43,226 nt of DNA from Patescibacteria group bacterium (GTDB taxonomy: Bacteria > Patescibacteriota > Patescibacteriia > WFTA01 > S139-112): contig WFTB01000012.1 of the NCBI GenBank assembly GCA_015485695.1, positions 1 through 43,226 on the forward strand, given 5' to 3'. Below the pieces are notes generated by a model, which was not told the DNA's origin, searched no databases, and saw only the letters and a list, made by a program, of their open reading frames with translations. The translations under genes were made by a program, and so were the position numbers. Shown here piece by piece: positions 15,231 through 31,870 of the stretch (positions within the stretch are counted from its first letter, which is position 1; every line of letters begins with the position of its first letter).

Positions 15231-16160
15231 ATGCTGATAAGCCCCAAGTCAATGCTAGAAAAAGCCAATAAAGAAGGCTATGCCGTTCCGGCGTTTAATA
15301 TAAACAACCTTGAAATTTTGCAAGCGGTAATCGAAGCCGCGTTGGAGGAAAATTCACCCGTTATAATCCAAACATCCGAAGGCGCCATTGAATACGCGGG
15401 CATGGAATACTTGGGCGCGATAGTTCGCGTGGCGGGTGAGTTGAATGATATTCCGATTGCTTTACACCTTGATCATGGAAGGGATTATAACCTTGTGAAA
15501 AAAGCCATTGATTCCGGTTTTTATACTTCCGTTATGTTCGACGGCTCATCTCTTCCGTTTGAAGATAATGTCCTAAAAACAAAAGACGTGGTTGTAATGG
15601 CGCGCAAAAAAAGACCGGCAATACAGGTTGAGGCCGAGCTTGGGGCTATACCCGGAAAAGAGGATTTGATACACGTTTCACGGAGAGACGCTTTTTACAC
15701 GAATCCGGAACAAGCGGAAGAATTTGTCGAAAAAACAGGATGTGATTCATTGGCGATATCCATAGGAACCGCGCACGGTGCGTTCAAATTCACGGATGAT
15801 CCGAGCCTTGATTTTGAAAGACTCAAAGAAATAAAAAAGCGAGTAAAAGTTCCGCTCGTCCTTCACGGGGCGTCGGAAGTCAATCAAGAAATCGTAAAGA
15901 TTGCCAACTCTTTCGGAGCCAAACTGGGCGGTGTCAAAGGGGTTTCCAACAGGCTCTTGTCACATGCGGTCAAACTTGGCATAAACAAGGTAAACATAGA
16001 CACTGATTTGAGAATAGCTTTTGACGCTGGCGTGCGCAAATTCCTAAAAACTTATCCGAAAGTGTTCGACCCCCGCAAGATTCTCGGTCCGGCGAAAGAT
16101 TTGATAAGACAAGAGGCGAGAGACAAGATGCGACTTCTCGGCTCGTCCGGAAAGGCTTGA
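15231..16160 (+). CDS. fba: Class II fructose-bisphosphate aldolase
   Basis: 309-residue zinc aldolase. Metal and substrate positions visible are ALHLDHG (about 82-88), VEAELGAIPGKED (about 135-147), SIGTAHGAFKF (about 182-192), LHGASEV (about 215-221) and NIDTDLRIAF (about 257-266). These are the histidines, Glu and the phosphate-binding segment of the family. It cleaves fructose-1,6-bisphosphate to triose phosphates, or acts on the closely related tagatose isomer. The start ATG is at 15231, 94 bases after the kinase gene. Confidence 0.93.
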   Translation: MLISPKSMLEKANKEGYAVPAFNINNLEILQAVIEAALEENSPVIIQTSEGAIEYAGMEYLGAIVRVAGELNDIPIALHLDHGRDYNLVKKAIDSGFYTSVMFDGSSLPFEDNVLKTKDVVVMARKKRPAIQVEAELGAIPGKEDLIHVSRRDAFYTNPEQAEEFVEKTGCDSLAISIGTAHGAFKFTDDPSLDFERLKEIKKRVKVPLVLHGASEVNQEIVKIANSFGAKLGGVKGVSNRLLSHAVKLGINKVNIDTDLRIAFDAGVRKFLKTYPKVFDPRKILGPAKDLIRQEARDKMRLLGSSGKA

Positions 16161-16238
16161 CCTTTTCGATTGATGTTAGTATTCTTGGGTTGGTGGTTTG
16201 AAAATTTTTTATTCTAGGCGGTTTTTTCCGTTCATGCG

Positions 16239-16390
16239 TCGAGGGGATTGGCTCCCTTGATTGGGTTTAAAATCGCAATAATTAAGGTGCTCCGACGAAA
16301 TGTCGGAGAAACTAGATGGAACCGCGGGTATTCAAAGCTCGTTCTAGTAAGTCAATTATGTTAATATTGGTTTACCGGAACGAGTTTTTT
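16239..16390 (+). promoter_or_regulatory. Glycine T-box riboswitch controlling glyS
   Basis: Parts seen, in order: hairpin 16239-16260 with GGC in its loop; stem-III-like hairpin CTCCGAC/GTCGGAG (16290-16308); antiterminator, with helix ACTAGA (16311-16316)/TCTAGT (16343-16348), the exact T-box bulge TGGAACC (16317-16323), then helix 16324-16329 with 16337-16342. The competing terminator pairs 16338-16351 with 16371-16384 and ends in TTTTTT at 16385-16390. In T-boxes the bulge base-pairs with the tRNA 3' end; TGGA fits 5'-UCCA, i.e. discriminator U as in bacterial tRNA-Gly, matching the downstream gene. A canonical long stem I is not resolved. Confidence 0.9.
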
Positions 16391-16440
16391 AATTTCATAT
16401 GGCTCGTACGTATTACGTGTCACTTATTACTTCAGTTACT

Positions 16441-17829
16441 ATGTCAAAAGAACACAACAATAAAATGAACAAAATCGTATCACTTGCAAAGCGTCGGGGG
16501 TTTATATTTCAATCATCGGAAATTTACGGAGGCCTCGGGTCGGTATACGACTATGGACCACTCGGGATTTTGTTGAAAAATAACATCAAACAAGCGTGGT
16601 GGAAATCGATGGTTCAGGATAATTTGGATATTGTCGGACTTGACGCGGGTATTCTCATGCATCAGAAGGTGTGGGAAGCGTCCGGGCATGTTGCTAGTTT
16701 CTCGGATCCTCTGGTTGACTGTAAACGGTGTAAACTGAGGCATCGCGCCGACAAACTTCTAATAGCCGCCGGAGTTGAAGCGGATGACAAGATGACTATA
16801 GACGAAATAAACGACTTGCTTGATAAACATAATACGGTATGTCCCGATTGTGGTGGCGAGCTTACCTCGGCGCGCAGTTTCAACCTCATGCTCAAGACAC
16901 ATCTTGGACCGGTTGAGAGCGACGAGTCAACCGTCTATCTGCGTCCCGAGACTGCGCAAGGAATTTACGTTAATTTCAAAAACGTACAGCAAAGCATGCG
17001 AAAGAAATTGCCGTTCGGAATCGCGCAAGTGGGAAAAGCGTTTCGCAATGAAATAACAACCAAGCAATTCATCTTCCGTACCAGAGAATTCACGCAAATG
17101 GAGATGCAATATTTTGTGCACCCGAAGTACGCGGACAAATATTACGATATTTGGAAACAAAAACGAATGAAATGGTTTCTGGACTACGGTATAAGCGAGA
17201 GTAACGTGCGTTATCACAAGCACGACAAGCTAGCTCACTACGCGAAATCGGCGTTCGATATCGAGTACAACTTCCCGGGCGGATGGGATGAGCTTGAGGG
17301 TCTTCACAATCGCGGTGATTTTGATTTATCTCAACATGAGAAATACAGTGGAGAAGATTTGCAATACACAGACTCTGGTACCAAAGAAAAATACACGCCG
17401 TATATTATCGAAACTTCCGTGGGTTTGGATCGTGCCGTGTTCGCATTTTTATCAGACGCGTATTCTACAATCGAGGGAGGCAGAGGCGAAGGAGCAAAGA
17501 GCGATGAAGAAGTCGTATTGCGTTTGCACAAGACTATCGCGCCGATTAAGGTGGCGATACTCCCGCTTTCTAAAAAGCCCGAATTGCAAAATCTTGCGCA
17601 TGAAATAGCAGACATTCTTAAAAGGCGCTGGATGATTCAATACGATGAAACCGGTTCAATAGGCAAACGCTACCGCCGGCAAGATGAAATCGGAACGCCA
17701 TATTGCGTAACCGTCGACTTTGATTCGTTGGAGGATAAGGCAGTCACTATACGAGATCGAGACACCATGAAGCAGGAGAGAATCGCCATTGATGAGCTGG
17801 TTCATTATTTACAAGATAATATTTGTTAA
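16441..17829 (+). CDS. glyS: Glycyl-tRNA synthetase (class II, dimeric type)
   Basis: 462 residues from the ATG at 16441; an in-frame ATG at 16399 would add 14 residues but starts only eight bases after the T-box terminator. Motif 1 region: [27 protein letters not shown] zinc-ribbon-like insertion has CKRCKLR and CPDCGG. Motif 2 is [23 protein letters not shown]. Motif 3 is [14 protein letters not shown]. The anticodon-binding domain is C-terminal, with an [13 protein letters not shown] segment. It charges tRNA-Gly, and the T-box leader lets uncharged tRNA-Gly raise its expression. Confidence 0.96.
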
Positions 17830-31665: not shown

Positions 31666-31731
31666 GATAAAGGTTATTATTACAATCCGCCTAACCCTTA
31701 AGAATTCTTTCTCAAGGTATGGCAACAAAAT

Positions 31732-31870
31732 CCTCCGCAACATAGATGGTCGCCTGACCATACTTCGTTGCGGAGGTCTATGCGGGAAACCGTATAGGAC
31801 GTTCCTGAAAGGGAGCGTCGTGGCGGGCGGCCTTTTATGTTTGGCCGTGCCACTTAAAAACCTCCGCAAC
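31732..31870 (+). ncRNA. Candidate structured leader RNA of the nuclease gene
   Basis: Four consecutive hairpins. H1: CCTCCGCAAC (31732-31741)/GTTGCGGAGG (31767-31776), enclosing ATGGTC/GACCAT. H2: 31779-31785 with 31790-31796, capped by GAAA. H3: 31798-31806 with 31811-31819, capped by GAAA. H4: 31820-31832 with 31843-31853, with a small bulge. A second copy of CCTCCGCAAC (31861-31870) ends four bases before the nuclease ATG and can compete for GTTGCGGAGG. The structure is seen; regulation is inference. Confidence 0.6.

Follow-up and report, generated by a model that had tools for sequence, protein, structure and literature searches.

Does the leader of the glycyl-tRNA synthetase gene glyS in a small patescibacterial genome hold a T-box riboswitch, and if so, which part of it reads the tRNA? 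The leader lies in a stretch of 43,226 nucleotides (nt), the whole of contig WFTB01000012.1 (assembly GCA_015485695.1), which we call the window and which is part of a 0.98 Mb Patescibacteria genome that is 99% complete. An earlier note, made from the letters of this DNA, had proposed a glycine T-box in a genome resembling those of the candidate phyla radiation. The host is a patescibacterium, and its closest named GlyS is that of 'Patescibacteria group bacterium S139_112' (67%). Judged by its sequence and structure, its match to codon and discriminator and the gene it precedes, the element is a T-box, and the variant is new within the family. Very probably, the glyS leader is an ultrashort, transcriptional glycine T-box riboswitch, for which tRNA binding and regulation would follow the known mechanism. 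Its parts, together with the gene it precedes, are:

16238 to 16261, plus strand: ultrashort Stem I, the specifier hairpin GUCGAGGG-GAUUGGCU-CCCUUGAU, found in the unconstrained minimum free energy (MFE) fold and recurring in six other glyS leaders
16250 to 16252, plus strand: specifier codon GGC (Gly) in the apical loop, read from the sequence and complementary to the anticodon GCC of a tRNA-Gly that is present in the genome
16262 to 16284, plus strand: single-stranded linker at the usual place of Stem II and too short for one, judged from sequence and fold
16285 to 16310, plus strand: Stem III with flanking conserved purines (AAGGUG, CUCCGAC-GAAAU-GUCGGAG, AA), based on sequence, fold and the Stem III alignment of Rfam family RF00230
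16311 to 16348, plus strand: antiterminator, helices A1 and A2 with the T-box bulge, based on fold and RF00230 alignment
16334 to 16390, plus strand: intrinsic terminator, which takes up the 3' halves of A1 and A2, based on the fold of 16330-16393
16441 to 17829, plus strand: glyS, glycine--tRNA ligase (NCBIfam NF003211, E 6.5e-199; PRK04173, 661 bits); an in-frame ATG at 16399 is a less likely alternative start

The switching half of the leader is complete. The bulge TGGAACC (UGGAACC in the RNA) agrees with the T-box consensus UGGNACC and occupies the 7 nt at 16317-16323, between helix A1, in which ACTAGA (16311-16316) pairs with TCTAGT (16343-16348), and helix A2, in which GCGGGU (16324-16329) pairs with GCUCGU (16337-16342). 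The Stem III hairpin proper, CTCCGACGAAATGTCGGAG at 16290-16308, is framed by the purines of the T-box trait RRRNG...AA (PMC7778990), here AAGGUG-stem-AA at about 16284-16310. The helix of the terminator runs from 16334 to 16388, T6 occupies 16385-16390, and terminator and antiterminator are mutually exclusive folds. In the unconstrained MFE fold of 16231-16349, the specifier hairpin and Stem III are formed together with the antiterminator, whose 7-nt bulge stays open, while the full leader folds as terminator instead (-22.1 vs. -10.5 kcal/mol for the antiterminator). The earlier note had already read the bulge, the antiterminator of ACTAGA/TCTAGT plus a second helix, a stem-III-like hairpin, the competing terminator with T6 and the identity of glyS, and all of these were recovered.

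Absent from its list of parts was the decoder, i.e., Stem I with the specifier. The genome holds three T-boxes, all before aminoacyl-tRNA synthetase genes: besides glyS these are thrS (G000:C2) and valS (G000:C20), the identities of which were confirmed by NCBIfam on relatives from the same protein clusters. Like the GGC of the glyS leader, ACC in the thrS leader (CGGG-UUACCGC-CCCG) and GUC in the valS leader (CUCGA-CUUGUCC-UCGAG) are located in an apical loop. Furthermore, 124 candidate T-box leaders were gathered from the class and sorted by downstream gene. Hairpins of at least six pairs with a cognate NNC codon in the loop occur in 5/7 glyS, 36/49 thrS, 7/11 aspS and 6/7 valS leaders; if slightly weaker stems are allowed, 7/7 glyS, about 39/49 thrS and 11/11 aspS leaders fit, as read by eye. 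Non-cognate codons are less frequent in such loops, save where they share bases with the motif, as UAC does in CUACC. Ten of the 11 aspS leaders (L010, L013, L119, L120, L127, L137, L142, L144, L165, L183) carry the Asn codon AAC and the other one, L151, carries GAC. The AAC-bearing leaders fit a non-discriminating aspartyl-tRNA synthetase that charges tRNA-Asn, which suggests a T-box controlled by the charging of this tRNA.

If these hairpins are real, related leaders should keep them paired while their bases change. For thrS, 37 leaders sharing GATTG, exactly six bases and the loop [YY]ACC were chosen without regard to pairing. The six bases on either side of the 7-nt loop pair in 98.2% of cells, compared to 50.9% in shuffles (0/500 as high) and at most 45.9% when slid; in 111 cells both sides changed, and the spacing is invariant in the 37 leaders. 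An outer helix that abuts a 3' TAA (mostly CTAA) comprises on average 5.1 Watson-Crick pairs, against 1.9 in the permuted control, and creates a multi-branch junction around the specifier hairpin. We know of no counterpart of this junction, with its conserved GAUUG and CUAA flanks in the 37 thrS leaders (L003 and 36 others), among described T-boxes. In glyS leaders, the specifier helix (7 leaders) is paired to 90.5% vs. 72.1% when shuffled (16/5000 as high) and the outer helix (6 leaders) to 92.9% vs. 70.9% (76/5000 as high), but the boundaries of both helices were placed by eye and these tests are consequently weaker than the thrS test. Only a modest excess over the null was obtained for A1 in a pooled test, because its strands resemble each other between leaders; A1 of the glyS leaders was read by eye, and an automatic finder chose wrong partners in some leaders. 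The earlier note had made its proposal depend on covariation of the helices and conservation of the bulge. Specifier helices of both glyS and thrS keep pairing through double changes, and the bulge is kept in 7/7 glyS leaders.

A further line of evidence comes from the tRNAs of the genome, which were collected and read with ARAGORN. All three tRNA-Gly genes carry U73, to which the bulge base A of the glyS leader is complementary, just as had been predicted from the bulge beforehand. U73 is likewise found in all tRNA-Thr, whereas tRNA-Val has A73. Within the genome, bulge and discriminator match in 3/3 cases (Gly UGGA/U73, Thr UGGA/U73, Val UGGU/A73), and in a second genome, G132, all pairs match as well (glyS UGGA/U73, thrS UGGA/U73, aspS UGGC/G73 of tRNA-Asn). 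Among 74 leaders the bulge base is gene-specific, being A in 48/49 thrS and 7/7 glyS leaders, U in 7/7 valS leaders, and C in seven and U in four aspS leaders; L134, counted among the 49 thrS leaders, has UGGU and may be misassigned. The bulge sequence by itself proves nothing, since the 11-mer GGTGGNACCGC, with one mismatch allowed, is no commoner in the genome than its reversed control. A third perfect 11-mer (G000:C29) was rejected as a T-box, as no leader was evident on reading and the site resembles coding sequence.

Database models lead to the same family. RF00230 (T-box), the model that the earlier note had proposed for a check, is the top Rfam family on the leader, with 38.7 bits and an E value of 2.9e-7 (401 nt searched); across the whole genome the leader obtains 41.6 bits and 3.1e-8. 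The alignment runs through Stem III, antiterminator and bulge, while the Stem I part is poorly matched. Codon, discriminator, gene, RF00230 and conserved leaders all speak for a glycine T-box.

Some observations weigh against this reading. The gathering score of RF00230, 93 bits, is not reached by the glyS leader, and a default Rfam scan at this cut-off reported no T-box in the window, so that a permissive scan was needed. Among the 30 closest glyS genes, window included, only 4 possess a T-box, which makes it a patchy trait, and the distinct glyS leaders with a T-box number only 7. In addition, six other glyS leaders display a kink-turn-like layout of outer helix, 3-nt bulge, GA...GA and inner helix. 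Stem I of the window retains both GA steps, but its outer helix is not complementary and the stem looks like an uninterrupted hairpin, so that the mode of action of this copy may differ or the copy may be in decay. Regarding the score, 14 control genomes were scanned and only five had matches (Bacillus, Lactococcus, Corynebacterium, Thermus and Deinobacterium), for the groups of which T-boxes have already been reported (PMC2494555). Three of these five also stay below the gathering cut-off. The missed score is thus a limit of the model and not a defining trait, and the low value is mainly due to the model's Stem I, for which the leader has no good counterpart.

Could the similarity to a T-box have arisen differently? 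The leader lies between glyS and the gene listed here:

15231 to 16160, same strand as glyS and upstream of it: fba, fructose-bisphosphate aldolase-like, named from its translation

Being downstream of fba, the leader could be an ordinary intrinsic terminator of that gene, and its likeness to a T-box would then be accidental. Yet with a genome-wide E value of 3.1e-8, with codon, discriminator and gene identity in concert, and with homologous leaders in front of glyS in other genomes, such a coincidence is extremely improbable. Alternatively, the leader could be the remnant of a former T-box which lost tRNA sensing and now acts as a constitutive attenuator. The missing outer kink-turn helix and the patchy occurrence of glyS T-boxes among relatives speak for such decay. 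It is nevertheless unlikely, as both terminator and antiterminator, the bulge, the purines of Stem III and the codon GGC are intact and agree with the tRNAs of the genome.

Another explanation leaves the T-box in place and concerns only its Stem I: the element might be canonical, with a long Stem I at 16157-16237 as aligned by Rfam, while the hairpin at 16238-16261 would be coincidental. The RF00230 alignment does begin at 16157, where a promoter is predicted as well:

16157 to 16185, plus strand: predicted sigma-70-type promoter (TTGACC, 17 nt, TATTCT) with 9/12 consensus matches, a kind of match that is common by chance and weak alone

From the end of this best promoter to the codon there are 63 nt. 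With transcription expected to start at about 16192, roughly 45 nt of additional 5' leader would precede the hairpin. A second possible -10 element at 16210-16215 was discarded, as it has no well-spaced -35. However, the Rfam alignment in this region is rich in mismatches and leaves out the distal part, which is 69 positions long. Hairpins with the GGC loop are also present in six other glyS leaders, in most of which the promoter lies 24-44 nt before the codon, and the equivalent loop carries cognate codons in thrS, valS and aspS leaders. A long Stem I is thus very unlikely. Of the 37 thrS leaders, 33 have a sigma-70 promoter whose end lies 10-23 nt ahead of GATTG, and the best promoter is found 12-35 nt upstream in 81% of leaders vs. 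19% of shuffles. A promoter in this position implies that no long Stem I can precede the element, and the ultrashort stem is most likely where the thrS leader RNA begins.

For an ultrashort glycine T-box, the following sequence of events can be envisioned, which we infer from the known T-box mechanism. RNA polymerase would synthesize the short hairpin with GGC in its apical loop, and the anticodon GCC of tRNA-Gly would pair with it. When uncharged, this tRNA would also pair through its free 3' end (U73-CCA) with UGGA of the bulge, stabilize the antiterminator beside Stem III and thereby allow transcription of glyS. If it is charged, glycine would block the contact of the 3' end, the stronger terminator at 16334-16390 would form and transcription would stop.

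How does such an element compare to known T-boxes? A close parallel is the Firmicute glyQS type (Bacillus subtilis, Geobacillus), which shares glycine, the GGC specifier, transcription termination, the lack of Stem II, and Stem III plus an antiterminator whose bulge base pairs with U73. In contrast, Stem I of the window consists of just one short hairpin, whose apical loop carries the codon. This arrangement is known from the ultrashort actinobacterial ileS T-boxes (Sherwood 2015, as covered in PMC7583486), in which a short Stem I can display the specifier in its apical loop, an elbow-binding double T-loop motif is absent and a basal kink-turn is present; a kink-turn-like base is seen here in valS, aspS and other glyS leaders. 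The ileS type, however, is mostly translational, specific for isoleucine and equipped with a Stem II with S-turn. The patescibacterial elements differ by a transcription terminator, by specificities for Gly, Thr, Val and Asn/Asp, and by a glycine type without Stem II. In the window, the distal double T-loop motif (AGAGA / UGxRA, which binds the tRNA elbow) is absent from the 24-nt Stem I, and only the linker of about 23 nt separates Stem I from Stem III, with no Stem II or S-turn; in the other glyS leaders, read by eye, no Stem II was recognized either. The element thus appears to combine a terminator and an apical-loop codon with the lack of both an elbow-binding motif and Stem II.

This combination touches on several statements in PMC7583486: that transcriptional T-boxes generally require a long, elbow-binding Stem I; that a truncated Stem I without Stem II barely binds tRNA, the short ones relying on Stem II; that glycine T-boxes can dispense with Stem II, as GGC-GCC pairing is strong; and the question if any T-box works without a kink-turn. 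Apparently devoid of long Stem I, Stem II and kink-turn, yet with all switch parts kept, the window element offers a direct test case.

One might speculate how the tRNA is held instead. The anticodon loop of the genome's tRNA-Gly(GCC) reads UUGCCAA, of which GCCAA complements UUGGC of the T-box loop, and hypothetically up to five pairs could form. The 7-nt thrS loop CUACCAA in turn has the form of an anticodon loop (YU-ACC-RA, in which Y and U precede the three bases and R and A follow them). Anticodon-type loops that are complementary are known to bind one another tightly, and such binding could replace the absent elbow and Stem II contacts. We tentatively consider it possible, if less than probable, that Patescibacteria use a minimal class of terminating T-boxes, in which the tRNA is recognized only through its 3' end and through loop-loop pairing of its anticodon loop with a short hairpin that resembles an anticodon arm, while elbow contact and Stem II are both lacking. 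The flanking loop matches to the tRNA vary among leaders, which weighs on this idea.

The earlier note was unsure how often T-boxes are described in Patescibacteria, and this doubt was justified: they are common in the sequences, and no open-access paper on them was found. At E <= 1e-4, a T-box match was detected in 149/381 genomes of the class and in 126/380 of the phylum, with only 10 and 13, respectively, above the Rfam cut-off. T-boxes have been described in Firmicutes, Actinobacteria, Chloroflexi, Deinococcus-Thermus and a few Proteobacteria (PMC2494555). For Patescibacteria, Parcubacteria or the candidate phyla radiation we found no open-access paper, subscription papers and preprints being outside the scope of this search and database-only annotations possibly existing. 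Control by tRNA charging would extend to a large phylum whose members are small and mostly uncultured. T-boxes are detectable in about one third of the genomes sampled from it, mostly with scores short of the cut-off that automatic annotation applies.

Besides the leaders discussed so far, the collection holds further T-box variants. At least eight thrS leaders (L026, L030, L132, L133, L139, L162, L188, L196) form a second type, whose Stem I is built differently and has its ACC within UACCA, outside the short apical loop. Thr-type T-boxes with ACC loop and UGGA bulge also occur in L031, L158, L177, L214 and L216, not directly before thrS but before related small genes that look acetyltransferase-like by eye. 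An S-turn-like sequence, AGUAGAA, is present in several aspS and some valS leaders. Longer-type patescibacterial T-boxes precede trpB-like genes (L128, L136, L155, L172), argG (L006, L012) and uridine-phosphorylase-like genes (L008, L009), which are unexpected targets for reduced genomes. Finally, the window contains a LOOT RNA (RF03000) at 31688-31819 on the plus strand, which with 74 bits exceeds its cut-off of 46.4.
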